This document shows, one piece after another, positions 3 through 64,000 of a stretch of 64,000 bases of DNA (position 1 is the stretch's first letter; every line of letters begins with the position of its first letter). A model generated the notes under the pieces. That model did not search any database and had not been told where the DNA came from. It saw only the letters and a list, made by a program, of their open reading frames with translations. Both the position numbers and the translations under genes were made by a program. Source of the DNA: Pedobacter chinensis. Lineage in GTDB: Bacteria; Bacteroidota; Bacteroidia; Sphingobacteriales; Sphingobacteriaceae. Location of the stretch: the NCBI RefSeq assembly GCF_003339865.1, contig NZ_QPKV01000003.1, positions 620,001 through 684,000 on the forward strand. Reading direction: 5' to 3'.

Positions 3-644
3 ATGACCATTTGCCTGATTTTTTACTGTTCTGTAGCAATGGCACAGTTACAGTTTAAAACTGGTAAAGATGGTTTCAGTGCTTTTTTAAGAGAGAAGAC
101 GATTTATCCCCAATTTTCAAAAAACAATTGCATCCAGGGTACTGTAAACATCAGCTTTAAGTTAGATGAGCAGGGAAGAGTATATTCCTCAAGAGTAACC
201 AAAAGCATTTTAGGAGAATTGGATGAGGAAGCCTTAAGGCTTGTTCGCTTGAGTAGTGGCAAATGGAAAGTTCCAACGGGTTATGATACCACAATTGCTG
301 TAGTTGTGCCCGTTAATTTTAAACTCTCTGGCTTTAATTGTGAAGGGAAATCAAATTCAGAAATTCAAGATGCAATCCGAAGCTATCAAGCTGAAGAGGG
401 ATTGACTAACTCAGTGATTAATTTCTATAAAAATATTGATCAGGCTAAACCCGGACAGGAAGTACAGATTATTGCTATTAAAAATCAATTAGGAATAGAT
501 GATGAGTATTTACAATCCAGAATTGATAATGGGTTGAAAAAAATAAAACAAGGAGATAAACAAGGTGCTTGTGAAGATTTTTTATTTGTTAAACATATGG
601 GGAGTAGCTTAGCCGATCAATACCTATCTAAATACTGTAAATAA
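3..644 (+). CDS. TonB C-terminal domain protein, exported, possibly 5' truncated
   Basis: A predicted exported protein with a TonB_C-like module at about residues 30-110, where the pattern YP-x-N-x-QGT-x-F-x-LDEQG is visible. This domain normally contacts TonB-dependent receptors in the periplasm, but here there is no N-terminal transmembrane anchor or proline-rich spacer, so energy transduction is not implied. Residues 120-213 are hydrophilic and end in a TPR-like helix pair (KQGDKQGACEDF). The hydrophobic leader ends in AMA-Q, a plausible signal peptidase site, but has no positively charged n-region. The ATG lies at the very edge of the window, so the real start may be upstream. It is followed with no gap by the next gene. 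The same domain recurs at the other end of the window. Confidence 0.6.
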   Translation: MTICLIFYCSVAMAQLQFKTGKDGFSAFLREKTIYPQFSKNNCIQGTVNISFKLDEQGRVYSSRVTKSILGELDEEALRLVRLSSGKWKVPTGYDTTIAVVVPVNFKLSGFNCEGKSNSEIQDAIRSYQAEEGLTNSVINFYKNIDQAKPGQEVQIIAIKNQLGIDDEYLQSRIDNGLKKIKQGDKQGACEDFLFVKHMGSSLADQYLSKYCK

Positions 645-12820: not shown

Positions 12821-13177
12821 TTATGGTTTTTCCGAAATATCTTCTCCAAAATGGATGATATTCCCGTTATTGTCTAAAATAGAAAATTGGCGCATTCCCC
12901 AAGGCATATTTTTAAGTTTTCCATTGGGATGAATAACTTCCTGCACTGTATATTCTTTATATAATTGATTTACTTCAGATACATAAATGTAACAGCCTGT
13001 GTTTTTTGGAATACTTTCATCATCAGTTGGCCAAAGGTGTATGCTGATTTCGTCTTTACTGAAAATTAGATATCCATCCCAATTATTGTGAAAAGTAAAA
13101 CCGAGTTTTTCAGTGTAGAATTTTATGGTTTCCTCCGCACTTAAAGAGGCGAGGATTGGAGTTGCGGTTTTAAGCAT
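12821..13177 (-). CDS. VOC family protein (glyoxalase/bleomycin resistance fold)
   Basis: A 118-residue single-module vicinal-oxygen-chelate protein. Visible are the paired beta-alpha-beta units: PILASLSAEETIKFYTEKLGF at the start, LIFSKDEISIHLW in the middle, and the final strand ILDNNGNIIHFGE with the typical D-x-x-G-N and terminal Glu. The substrate is unknown; relatives include glyoxalases and bleomycin-binding proteins. It is two bases from the stop of the upstream 69-residue gene, so they form a unit. Confidence 0.85.
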   Translation of the reverse strand: MLKTATPILASLSAEETIKFYTEKLGFTFHNNWDGYLIFSKDEISIHLWPTDDESIPKNTGCYIYVSEVNQLYKEYTVQEVIHPNGKLKNMPWGMRQFSILDNNGNIIHFGEDISEKP

Positions 13178-13179
13178 GA

Positions 13180-13389
13180 TTACAAATTTATGTTTCTTGC
13201 TCTGACACTAAATTTAGTTCTATCCATTTTTGGTGGATTATCTTCAGGGAAATTAAAAGCAATGCTGTTCAAATAATTTGCAATTTTTAAGCGTTCTTGC
13301 CAGGATAACTTCTTATAAAACTCAGCGTGAGATTTTGAAGCCTCCTCTGCTGTTTGTGCTTTAAATGCTGTTCTATCTAAACGGTACAT
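13180..13389 (-). CDS. Small conserved hypothetical protein
   Basis: A 69-residue soluble protein starting MYRLDRTAFKAQTAEEA and ending in the basic FSVRARNINL. I take the ATG at 13387-13389; a TTG two codons upstream is the only alternative. The pattern LDRT-x-F-x-Q-T-x-EEA, then a helix (SWQERLKIANYL), then PPKMDRT looks familiar from small uncharacterised Bacteroidetes proteins, but I know no function. It sits between the GNAT and VOC genes with short gaps, in the same direction. Confidence 0.65.
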   Translation of the reverse strand: MYRLDRTAFKAQTAEEASKSHAEFYKKLSWQERLKIANYLNSIAFNFPEDNPPKMDRTKFSVRARNINL

Positions 13390-60339: not shown

Positions 60340-61037
60340 TTATCGATCGAGATTGAAATTTACGTTTATATTGTATCTTACCCTCACAGGAACTCCAAAT
60401 TGTATACCCGGTGTCCATTTAGGCGAAGCAGAGAGTACTCTAACCGCTTCCTCATTAGTTTCCGGACTTAACCTCTTGTCACTTTAATATTTGTTAGCTG
60501 ACCATCTTTTTCAACAATAAATGATAGAAAAACCCTTCCGGATATGTGGTTTTTACGTGCTTCCTTAGGATATTTAATATTTGCATTTAAATAATCGTAA
60601 AAGGCTTTTATTCCTCCCGGGAACTGCGGCTGCTTCTCCATTGATATAAAATCAAAAACCCCATTCGGAATAGAGTCTCTTGAAGGTGGATTGGTTTTAG
60701 GTTTCGTACCTGCATCTGATTCGGACTTGAAATTGATTTTGGAAATTTTTTCTTCTATGGTAAGGTTTTCAGGGCTATTTTTTTTAGCCTTGGTAATCAC
60801 TATTATAAGATCTTTGTCATCATTTATGCCAAATAATTCCTTATGCTTCTTTTGTTTTATAACTGTGAGAGATTCGATGCTTTCCTTGTTAATTTTTGCT
60901 GCTTCCTCTCTTAGCACTAATTTTCCATCAATAAGAAACAATAAATTTTCACTGGAGGCTGGGGGTTGTTGCGCTGCTACGCTTAGTGTACAGCATACAA
61001 AACCCAAGAACGTTAATAACAATTTTTTCATTTTCAA
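60340..61037 (-). pseudogene. Plug motif plus TonB_C protein gene, frameshifted near its 3' end
   Basis: The open part (60468-61037, 189 codons) has a signal peptide ending in VAAQ, a receptor-plug-like motif (LLFLIDGKLVL, then SIESLTVIKQKK and IIVITKA) and the first part of a TonB_C domain. It stops at VTRG-TAA. Adding one T in the GGTTA of that region restores the missing end: LSPETNEEAVRVLSASPKW, then YNINVNFNLDR and TAA at 60340-60342. So one base has been lost and the last 42 residues of the domain are out of frame. A sequencing error is possible. Confidence 0.85.
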
Positions 61038-61064
61038 ATATAACTGTTGGCAGCATAAATGACA

Positions 61065-61109
61065 AAAATCGCATGTTTCTTAATCTTAAATTAAGAAACA
61101 TGCGATTTT
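61065..61109. terminator. Very strong terminator between two TonB-family genes
   Basis: A perfect 20-bp stem (61065-61084 with 61090-61109) and a five-base loop, with A and T tracts. It separates the double-TonB_C gene from the plug-TonB_C gene, so they are different transcription units. Confidence 0.9.
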
Positions 61110-61138
61110 AAATAATCCGAGAGCTTAACTTAAAAAAA

Positions 61139-61868
61139 TTAACTCAATGAGAAATTCACTGTCATATGATATTTAGCCTTAACCGGACGACCATCTGTTC
61201 CGATAGCGGGGTTCCACTTTGGTGCGGATTTCATTACTCTTAATGCTTCTGCATCGGTTTCTTTAGATAAGCTTCTTGTAACCACTATATCTGTTAACGA
61301 ACCATCTTTCTCAACATAAAAAGTTAAAAATACTATTCCCTGTATGTTATTTTTTTTTAGCTTGGTCAGGATATTTGATGTTTTTTACCAGATAACTGTA
61401 AAGCTTACTTGTGCCTCCAGGGTATTCAGGGGCTTTCCCATTTAGAGCCTTGGTTTTTTTCTCTGCTCCCTTTTGAGATAAGTTAAAATTAACATTGATG
61501 TTGTATTTAACCCTAACCGGTTTGCTATTAATTAAACCAGGATTCCAATTCGGCGAATTTTTGATTACTCTGATTGCTTCTGCATTAGTTTCTGCTGAAA
61601 GCCCTCGTGTAACCACAACATTTCCCAGGCTTCCGTTTTTTTCCACAACAAAGGATACAAATACCTTTCCTTCTGTTTTGTTATTTTTTGCTACCTCGGG
61701 ATATTTTATCTCCTTTGCCAGATAATCATAAAACTTAGCAATACCACCCGGATAAGAAGGTTGCTGATCAACCGAGGTAAAATCTACTACTTTTTCGTTC
61801 TGTGCTTTGACCGAATTAGTAAACATGGCAATGCCCGTTAGGGCTAAAATCATTAGCTTTCTCATCAT
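61139..61868 (-). pseudogene. Double TonB_C protein gene, frameshifted at an A9 run
   Basis: The open part (61347-61868, 173 codons) has a signal peptide (ending VKAQ), one complete TonB_C domain (IKYPEVAKNN to NINVNFNL) and the start of a second (NIKYPDQAKKK). It ends because of nine A (complement of 61351-61359). With eight A the frame continues NNIQGIVFLTFYVEKDGSL through SLSKETDAEALRVMKSAPKW to VNFSLS and TAA at 61139-61141, about 243 residues. The run could be a slippage site, a mutation or a sequencing error. Alternatively the short form is a functional product. Confidence 0.8.
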
Positions 61869-61889
61869 AAATTTTATAAAATTGTTTAA

Positions 61890-62531
61890 CTAGTTTTTCT
61901 TTGGAGAATCTTTTTTAGTTGCTTTTGTTGTGATGATAACTACACCATCTTTTGCCTTTTCTCCATATAATGCTGAAGTTCCTGCTTCTTTTAGAACAGT
62001 TACAGACTCAATGTTTTCAGGGTTTAAGCTTTTGATATCAAATATTTCCTTGCCATCGACAATATATAGCGGCTCTTTGCCTTCTATTTTGAGGTTGCTG
62101 CGCTTCCATGAAAAATTATTTGAATTTTTGCCTTTAAGATAAATTGATTGTGGACGTACACTTAAGCCCGACACTTTTCCATTTAGCGTAGAATCCGATT
62201 TTAAAAATAGCTTCCCTTTAATGGATGATTTACTGTTTTTCGTTTTTATTTCGATTACCCCATTGCTTCCTTCCGCACCATATAAAGCTATAGCAGATTC
62301 ATCTTTATAAATATTGATCGACTCAATAGTGTTCGGATCAACTTCTTTTAAGGCATTGGTGCCACGAATCAATTGTTTGCTACCGTCAATGATAATCAGC
62401 GGATCATTACCGCCTGGTTTGGATGTACCTTGCAAAATAATATTGTCAGATATTTTTATCGTGTCTGTGGTTTGCGCATAACCTTTGAACGTAAACGTTA
62501 TGGCAATTGCTGCTATTAATATGGTTTTCAT
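61890..62531 (-). CDS. Exported protein made of two TonB-receptor plug-like motifs
   Basis: A 213-residue protein with a signal peptide ending in GYAQ. The plug-domain signature appears twice: PLIIIDGSKQL with TIESINIYKDESAIALYG and GVIEIKTK, and again PLYIVDGKEIF with NIESVTVLKEAGTSALYG and GVVIITTK. No barrel, no CarboxypepD domain and no TonB box follow, so it is not a receptor. It is 19 bp downstream of the M56 gene and 21 bp upstream of the double-TonB_C gene, so the three should form an operon. Confidence 0.8.
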   Translation of the reverse strand: MKTILIAAIAITFTFKGYAQTTDTIKISDNIILQGTSKPGGNDPLIIIDGSKQLIRGTNALKEVDPNTIESINIYKDESAIALYGAEGSNGVIEIKTKNSKSSIKGKLFLKSDSTLNGKVSGLSVRPQSIYLKGKNSNNFSWKRSNLKIEGKEPLYIVDGKEIFDIKSLNPENIESVTVLKEAGTSALYGEKAKDGVVIITTKATKKDSPKKN

Positions 62532-62550
62532 AATGTAGATTTTGGTATTG

Positions 62551-64000
62551 TTACTGTTTAATATCGTAAGCAGATGGTTTATTTATTGTTATTTCCTTTT
62601 GATCTGATTTCATTAATAAATTATTCTTTTTCCCTGCTTTTGTTGCTATTAATAATACGCCGTTTTTTGCTTTGTAGCCGTAAGAGTTTGTCGCGAGCTG
62701 ATCTTTAAGAACTGAAATAGATTCTATATCATTCGGATCTAAGGTGCTCAGTAAATTATTATTTAACAGTCTGATACCATCAATAACAACCACTCCATTA
62801 AATGTGCCGTCACTTAATTTAATGGAGCTGTTCTTTTCGGTTGATCTTAATAGTAAATTTTGTGTTTTAACCGTAGGATCGGGAGTTGTGCCCTGATCGT
62901 TCTCCGAACTGAGTGTAAAATTCACATTAATGTTGTATTTTACCCGTACTGCTTTACCTTCAGCTAATCCTGGGTTCCATCTTGGTGATCCGCTGATTAC
63001 TCTAACTGCTTCTTCGTCTGTTCCGCTACCCAATCCGCGTGTTATTTGTACATCAGTCAGTGCGCCATTCTTCTCAACAATGAACGATAAAAATATCTTT
63101 CCCTGAACGTTATTTTCTTGTGCCAATTTGGGGTACTTGATACTTTTGCTTAAATATTCGTAGAATTTTTTAATTCCACCCGGAAATTCAGGCTGTTTCT
63201 CAATGGATACGAAATCGTATATTTTATCGATTTTTTCATCAGTAATATTCTCTCTAACCGGGTTCGAGTAACCTATTACGTTGATATCAGATAGCTTCTT
63301 ATGTGAAGGCAACAACAGGGCTTTTTCATTTTTAATTTTAGAGTTGTTGTCCGTTAATCTAAAATCAACCTTTAAAACATAATTCCCATCAGGTAAATTT
63401 TTGAAATCTTTGTAGGATAGCAATGATTTCATTACTTCTTCATCACAACCATCTCCTAAATCCAATACGGTGCTTACATTGGTTACCTTATTGTTTTTAA
63501 GGGTAAACTTAATTTGTGTATTGCCTTGTAAATTGTTTTTCTGTGCATCAACAGGATATTTTATCGATTTTGCCATAAAACGATAGAAATTAGTCCAGTT
63601 GCCATCAATTTTTTCTGTTGATGGTTTAATCACACTTTTTGATAATCTTTCGTTCACGAATTCTTCTTTAGGCGCTACCATCTCCTGAACGATTTCAATG
63701 GGTTTTTCTAAAGGGATCTGCTCTGAGATGGCGATAAGTTTTTTGTTTTTACGAACAGTGGCAGAAGAAAAGACAATAAGAAGTGCAAATAATGGTATAA
63801 AAAAGCCATATTTCATGATCGCTATTTTCTTTGATCGTTCTTTTTGCAACATAAAAATCCGCTTCTTAATTAATGATTTATCAAAAAAACCATTGGCCAA
63901 CCTGTTTGGCGAAACTCCGAAAGATTGGCTCAAAATTAGCATGGCATACTCGGCTTTATCACCTTGAAATTTTGCGGCTTGTTCATCAGCCAAAAACTCA
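62551..64000 (-). CDS. M56 (BlaR1-type) peptidase fused to TonB_C and plug modules, 5' part outside the window
   Basis: The frame is open to the window edge and continues beyond it. The first visible residues EFLADEQAAKFQG are the last zinc-ligand block of the M56 peptidase domain, and a membrane segment (YGFFIPLFALLIVFSS) follows. Downstream are two TonB_C domains (first SIKYPVDAQKNNLQG, second SIKYPKLAQENNVQG) and a plug-like motif (VVVIDGIRLL, then DIESISVLKD and GVLLIATK). BlaR1-type peptidases sense envelope stress and cleave a repressor of the BlaI type, which is often encoded upstream. Any such gene would be outside the window. Confidence 0.85.
   Translation of the reverse strand, partial: EFLADEQAAKFQGDKAEYAMLILSQSFGVSPNRLANGFFDKSLIKKRIFMLQKERSKKIAIMKYGFFIPLFALLIVFSSATVRKNKKLIAISEQIPLEKPIEIVQEMVAPKEEFVNERLSKSVIKPSTEKIDGNWTNFYRFMAKSIKYPVDAQKNNLQGNTQIKFTLKNNKVTNVSTVLDLGDGCDEEVMKSLLSYKDFKNLPDGNYVLKVDFRLTDNNSKIKNEKALLLPSHKKLSDINVIGYSNPVRENITDEKIDKIYDFVSIEKQPEFPGGIKKFYEYLSKSIKYPKLAQENNVQGKIFLSFIVEKNGALTDVQITRGLGSGTDEEAVRVISGSPRWNPGLAEGKAVRVKYNINVNFTLSSENDQGTTPDPTVKTQNLLLRSTEKNSSIKLSDGTFNGVVVIDGIRLLNNNLLSTLDPNDIESISVLKDQLATNSYGYKAKNGVLLIATKAGKKNNLLMKSDQKEITINKPSAYDIKQ

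Follow-up and report, generated by a model that had tools for sequence, protein, structure and literature searches.

The operon considered here runs along the minus strand at the end of a 64,000-nucleotide stretch of Pedobacter chinensis DNA (the window; positions 620001-684000 of contig C15 in a 5.4-Mb genome, with window numbering continued beyond 64000), and by analogy with BlaR1/BlaI it very probably encodes a largely self-controlling proteolytic derepression switch of that type. From beyond the window end inward, its genes encode a BlaI repressor, an M56 membrane protease, and three satellite proteins built of plug-plug, TonB_C-TonB_C, and plug-TonB_C modules. The protease (62551-64569, in the window to 64000; 672 aa) carries a periplasmic sensor composed of two TonB_C domains and a plug unit; the second TonB_C domain (C2) is a near replica of the C-terminal domain of the genome's own TonB, which it follows from genome to genome. 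Judged from sequence, the odds are about even that the input of the switch consists of TonB-binding partners read by this sensor.

The BlaI gene (64566-64943; PF03965, 7.5e-33) lies directly upstream of the M56 gene, past the window end, and overlaps it; a preliminary description of the window, which proposed an envelope-sensing family with M56 proteolysis as output, had suggested looking for such a repressor there. Of three findings that the description itself had set against its proposal, two, an absent BlaI gene and a gene set unconserved in relatives, did not come about. Its M56 assignment also holds: the full gene meets PF05569 (Peptidase_M56) at 39.6 bits, with a cut-off of 31; the piece in the window contains the end of the M56 domain only, lacks the HExxH motif, and draws no M56 report from Pfam when searched alone. 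For that piece (62551-63999) Pfam reports TonB_C, PF03544, in two stretches (2.5e-23) and a plug half (7.9e-05) at 23.6 bits, marginally below the cut-off of 23.9; the NCBIfam SusC/RagA signature TIGR04057 likewise scores 39.2 bits, below its cut-off of 46.2. No transpeptidase or beta-lactamase family is reported at the C-terminal sensor, where Pfam gives TonB_C and Plug, and no outer-membrane barrel family in any of the four proteins (173-672 aa), which agrees with the earlier statement that no beta-barrel is present. Conservation was assessed in the best 80 of 472 confirmed stretches from a scan of genome contigs, which are Pedobacter-type loci with modules assigned by local profiles. The BlaI and M56 genes overlap by exactly 4 bases in all 80 and here, the protease motif HExxH..W.NP..HE..AD is present in 80/80, and the order M56-TonB_C-TonB_C-plug is kept in 70/80; at least one TonB_C or plug satellite accompanies the pair in 55/80 loci, in nine module orders (with fragments of the split M56 genes of L124 and L141 set aside), although satellites may be missed in those loci that reach contig ends.

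C2 (residues 459-547; 62929-63195) is 78% identical to the domain of the own TonB, the last gene of an exbB-exbD-exbD-tonB cluster at C15:468-472 kb; exbB and exbD are not linked to the operon. In other genomes the best match to this TonB was used, irrespective of neighbors; two matches occur in 7 of 29 genomes of one subset, and the better one was taken. The own genome contains a second TonB-like frame of 284 aa (G000:C18:440776-441138). Across the 15 genomes of a first set, C2 averages 76.1% identity to the own TonB domain versus 63.7% to foreign ones; in a second set of 59 genomes searched (30 + 29), 58 of which have both domains, the values are 76.2% and 68.4%, and 0/10000 permutations reach the observed mean. 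Because this permutation test ignores relatedness, a clade comparison and a tree were added. With clades defined at 85% clustering, own exceeds foreign in 21/21 pairs; a tree of 21 TonB and 21 C2 domains is intermixed, with C2 forming a single clade in 0/200 bootstrap trees, and a single C2 clade is rejected (log-likelihood 95.6 lower; approximately unbiased test, p 0.000118), albeit on a tree in which one branch (G219_C2) is long and many forks are weak. For pairs whose TonB domains are less than 70% identical, identity is 74.8% between C2 and own TonB, 61.2% between C2 and foreign TonB, 66.8% between the TonB domains, and 58.8% between the C2 domains; at one alignment column (mostly T, D, or E) C2 has the residue of its own TonB in 91% of cases versus 33% for foreign TonB. 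Across families, 11 genomes give 67.0% own versus 51.2% foreign, with own as the row maximum in 7/11; this comparison leaves out the TonB loci L347 and L348 and includes a 234-aa candidate from G414 that may not be an ExbBD-linked TonB. TonB_C domains of the satellites track the own TonB more weakly (60.0 versus 53.1%, own higher in 66/69). Since C2 evolves in step with the own TonB, the switch probably reads how the TonB machinery is used.

The first TonB_C domain (C1; residues 318-405; 63355-63618), which was treated as equivalent to C2 in the preliminary description, is instead divergent; it is recognized by a local profile, has a predicted fold with pLDDT above 90, and shares 21-42% identity with the own TonB in those 12 genomes of the first set where it is present. 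Between C1 and C2 lies a TonB-box-like motif, LSDINVIGYS (residues 426-435; 63265-63294). The own genome has 68 SusC/RagA-signature matches, three of which are the operon's own plug units; a box profile was built from 30 of the 68 and refined on these same 30, all of which gave a box, 28 of them at 73-80 residues before the plug unit and two with weak scores. By this profile, the linker between C1 and C2 scores above shuffled versions of itself in 62/77 proteins at p <= 0.05 (37 at 0.01), compared with 3/76 for the linker before C1 and 7/76 for the linker before the next module (mostly plug); the 77 proteins are relatives, and hence not 77 independent trials. A universal TonB box in such sensors is rejected, the motif being found in 5/26 rows of M56 proteins with a single TonB_C (one gene appears twice, L086 = L315) and in 1/13 control linkers.

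AlphaFold2 modeling of residues 275-672 (46 sequences, mean pLDDT 79.6, pTM 0.40), which like the other structure prediction used a single chain, shows C1, C2, and the plug unit folded. INVIGY of the motif is modeled as a strand within a segment of pLDDT 93, and the next ten residues before C2 fall to pLDDT 52; the strand may pack against C1 in the way that a TonB box joins TonB. Of the interface between modules anticipated earlier, the single-chain model covers only a part: it predicts an ordered β-strand beside C1 within the M56 chain. The C2 model aligns with TonB as bound to FoxA (VIA-align Z 10.4, 1.9 Å, 89 residues), and C1 gives a weak match to TolA (Z 3.9). The plug unit (residues 593-644; 62638-62793), a SusC-type half plug, matches the plug of BT1762-63 (Z 5.2, 65 residues) and RagA (6sli_B, E 4.6e-08); the model of the plug-plug satellite reaches pLDDT 67.5, and its best matches are SusC plugs at E 1.9e-03, with none under 0.001.

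An operator-like dyad, AACTAA-N4-TTAGTT, lies upstream of blaI (64995-65010, i.e., C15:684995-685010); it is exact in 78/80 relatives and differs by a single base in the remaining two, with variable central bases. In 54/80 it is situated between TTnG and TAnnTTT elements at near-fixed spacing, a -33/-7-like promoter whose arrangement we take to be like the Bacteroidetes promoter layout. The combined dyad and promoter pattern, with one mismatch allowed, occurs at 44 sites in 41/60 Pedobacter genomes, counted irrespective of whether blaI follows each, and the reversed control yields 1 site. The conserved dyad at the promoter points to auto-repression by BlaI, which would bind it. In G163 the second of two promoter-coupled sites (L232:12890) precedes an unlinked 130-aa TonB_C gene (12976-13368), about 5 kb past the operon with other genes intervening; as this gene stands behind its own dyad, satellites are likely regulatory targets in their own right. 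No wider regulon was detected: exact dyads occur at 3 places in the own genome and at 3 in the reversed control, so the sites at C15:119596 and C16:363682 are not claimed as targets, nor are second promoter-coupled sites in G173 and G140, which lie between genes lacking these modules. A candidate pattern for the BlaI cleavage-site motif matches 0/80 relatives, and no site is assigned.

Other dyads were noted beside the subject. In two genomes, at L233:7418 and L234:6339, a second promoter-coupled dyad occupies the same place, between a gene that by eye is fatty-acid-hydroxylase-like and a gene for an unknown secreted protein. Elsewhere in the own genome, blaI genes on C18, C4, and C16 (L010, L011, L012) apparently have, judged by eye, another dyad of TACGA...TCGTA type near the repressor start; the blaI on C21 has AACT-N8-AGTT dyads.

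The four genes display the module combinations that had been listed for the window, with two of the satellite genes frameshifted. The plug-plug protein (61890-62531; 213 aa) has an N-terminus that by eye is signal-peptide-like; Pfam reports Plug in two stretches (2.2e-17), and TIGR04057 scores 82.7 bits. The TonB_C-TonB_C gene (61139-61868) has an open frame that stops at 61347 through a frameshift at a run of A inside the second TonB_C, the rest being open to 61139 in another frame; the frame 61347-61868 gives one stretch of TonB_C in Pfam (5.8e-18), and the second, cut copy is detected only by local profiles. The plug-TonB_C gene (60340-61037) has an open frame that stops at 60468, a frameshift breaking it mid TonB_C (like the preceding break, placed by eye), with the rest open to 60340 in another frame; Pfam reports TonB_C in 60468-61037 at 1.5e-08 (profile positions 2-37 of 79), and the plug unit is detected only by local profiles. 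The two frameshifted neighbors (60468-61868) may reflect recent loss or sequencing error. Intact relatives are found in L090, namely a 238-aa TonB_C-TonB_C gene and a 230-aa plug-TonB_C gene; of these modules, Pfam reported TonB_C alone in the latter.

It is hypothesized that the M56 protein acts as a membrane-tethered TonB mimic that samples TonB-receptor contacts. C2 would bind the partners of TonB, be it the TonB boxes that loaded receptors expose or a different Ton partner; C1 would grip the chain's own TonB-box-like strand as a resting clamp; engagement of C2 would then activate the protease, leading to cleavage of BlaI and derepression of the operon. The satellites would be the main output, supplying TonB_C and plug modules in soluble form that compete and buffer traffic between TonB and receptors, and the plug end of the sensor could likewise compete or buffer; the odds for this role of the satellites are lower than those for an input from TonB partners. 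The model as a whole, a regulated-proteolysis switch with a sensor made of TonB import parts, C2 reading Ton partners, and satellites as output, is held to be evenly poised between right and wrong. The envelope-sensing idea of the preliminary description appears largely correct: the protease-repressor layout is supported, and contact with outer-membrane receptors is suggested by the sequence tracking with the real TonB. It is also proposed, more tentatively, that the operon represents a separate class of TonB-coupled trans-envelope signaling, in which a protease sensor mimics and co-evolves with the own TonB, retains its partners, and signals the engagement of receptors through destruction of a repressor.

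Several observations weigh against this model. The own C2 is closest on average in only 4/7 clades, and it ranks first for its TonB in only 9/58 genomes (median rank 6.5), near relatives being alike; the tracking could also stem from gene conversion long ago or from repeated recapture of the domain. The rarity of the motif in M56 proteins with a single TonB_C allows that it may be a strand of C1 itself, and the partner of the motif strand is not seen in the model, for which pTM is 0.40. No satellite is seen in 25/80 loci, two of the three here are broken, and 6 of 27 M56 proteins sampled across the phylum show neither TonB_C nor plug by local profiles.

Some of these points would fit the same switch with another input, whereby TonB_C and plug serve as general-purpose periplasmic binders of peptidoglycan, peptides, or one another, and the likeness of C2 stems from repeated TonB recapture or conversion; this is considered rather unlikely. 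TonB_C does exist outside TonB, as in the protein at window positions 3-644; the own C2 is not always closest to the own TonB; and another M56 protein of the own genome bears an amidase domain, a wall-related part. However, recent gene conversion is rejected as the cause of the tracking, since nucleotide identity between own TonB and C2 is at most 75.3% in 58 pairs and same-codon use at shared residues is nearly equal for own (0.441) and foreign (0.419) pairs; C1, in the same chain, scarcely tracks TonB (29.1% own versus 27.8% foreign, n = 56); and the TonB-box-like motif and SusC plug parts occur together. Shared selection is the preferred reading of the tracking.

A sensor of force or energy is a less probable alternative still: TonB driven by ExbB-ExbD would grip the box and plug of the M56 sensor and pull, and the output of the protease would then follow the energy state of the Ton motor or its spare capacity. 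The chain does combine a TonB-box-like motif with a SusC plug half and no barrel, and the box consensus resembles the box of Bt1763, deletion or replacement of which causes a levan growth defect like that of SusD deletion, according to the available text of PMC7782687; yet the motif is predicted to be folded rather than free, it is undetected in most relatives with a single TonB_C, and the copying of TonB by C2 is left unexplained. It is equally hard to credit a self-contained or decaying operon, in which the reach of BlaI hardly extends past its own genes and the satellites are expendable, recombination-shuffled remnants devoid of physiological output: promoter-coupled sites number about one per genome, exact dyads in the own genome do not exceed the reversed control, and satellite sets vary widely besides being partly frameshifted or missing, but repressor, protease motif, and dyad are conserved in 80, 80, and 78 of the 80 relatives, an unlinked satellite has its own dyad in G163, and the satellite TonB_C domains track the own TonB.

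Compared with known systems, the operon is of the M56/BlaI kind but differs in its sensor. As in BlaR1-BlaI and MecR1-MecI, insofar as these are described in the available text of PMC7593790, a repressor gene stands beside that of an M56 membrane protease that has an HExxH motif and a C-terminal sensor outside the cytosol, and a dyad is found at the shared promoter with the controlled genes alongside. The sensor of BlaR1/MecR1 is class-D beta-lactamase-like, whereas here it is TonB_C-TonB_C-plug; nor does the operon hold a beta-lactamase or penicillin-binding protein gene, its satellites being TonB_C and plug proteins. C2 resembles the TonB energy transducer in identity and in tracking it across genomes; however, TonB has an ExbBD-driven N-terminal helix and a proline-rich linker where this chain has an M56 protease anchor, and the operon is unlinked to exbBD. 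SusC/RagA receptors share the plug signature and the TonB-box-like motif, to which L072 adds the N-terminal extension domain, but here the beta-barrel is missing, most plugs are halves, and the chain is presumably periplasmic or anchored in the inner membrane. Cell-surface signaling through extracytoplasmic function (ECF) sigma factors and FecR would also couple the state of an outer-membrane receptor to transcription; in contrast, this system uses a repressor and a protease, its sensor is TonB-like rather than binding a receptor signaling domain, and the operon has no sigma or anti-sigma genes, the families near or over Pfam cut-offs being BlaI, M56, TonB_C, and Plug.

M56-TonB_C architectures are catalogued by Pfam. 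A literature search, with preprints and most subscription papers outside its scope, found no paper describing M56-TonB_C sensors; it also returned none on sensing of load on the shared TonB machine, with no search worded for that question alone. The available text of PMC12204202 concerns TonB evolution and does not treat M56. In P. gingivalis a BlaI-type gene, whose neighboring locus tag is an M56 gene, is lower in excess hemin (log fold change -1.74), as given in the accessible part of PMC10470040; this is a possible lead only. Four points are new here: the dyad upstream of blaI, the unlinked satellite with a dyad to itself, the way C2 tracks TonB, and the strand resembling a TonB box. The 68 SusC/RagA-signature matches in the genome imply a large number of receptors served by few TonB motors; with a sensor that is a copy of TonB and is matched to it through evolution, sensing of shared-TonB load would become directly testable.

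The family looks widespread in the phylum, its profile matching 111/198 sampled genomes at E <= 1e-20, although some matches are TonB alone. In a phylum set of 27 loci (L315-L341), chosen among the best profile matches and with several genes cut at locus ends, BlaI flanks M56 in 27/27 and TonB_C or plug units are found in 21/27 M56 proteins, in orders such as M56-plug-plug-plug and M56-TonB_C-plug-plug-TonB_C. In L072 the C1 position is taken by CarbopepD_reg_2 (2.1e-09), the domain type of the SusC N-terminal extension in the available text of PMC7782687.

The own genome contains six M56 matches, grouped in five BlaI-M56 clusters. At L009:6773-10303 (contig C21) a BlaI gene precedes two M56 genes whose sensors are different envelope parts; one bears Amidase_3 (1.6e-32) and the other a weak LptA/LptD_N-like match (0.0014, under the cut-off). 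More generally, an M56 sensor may be a copied part of whichever envelope machine it monitors; examples would be TonB and plug in this operon, an amidase and perhaps an LptA-like part elsewhere in the genome, and a beta-lactamase-like domain in BlaR1.

The 213-aa protein at window positions 3-644 (plus strand), noted earlier for having the same module, does contain one TonB_C (3.1e-12), with a C-terminal part that matches no Pfam family at E <= 0.01; it is separated from the operon by 60 kb and does not belong to it. Beyond the window, L007:16141-16587 (window numbering 75640-76086) is an open frame of 148 aa whose internal repeat is obvious; it may be a non-coding array of DNA repeats.

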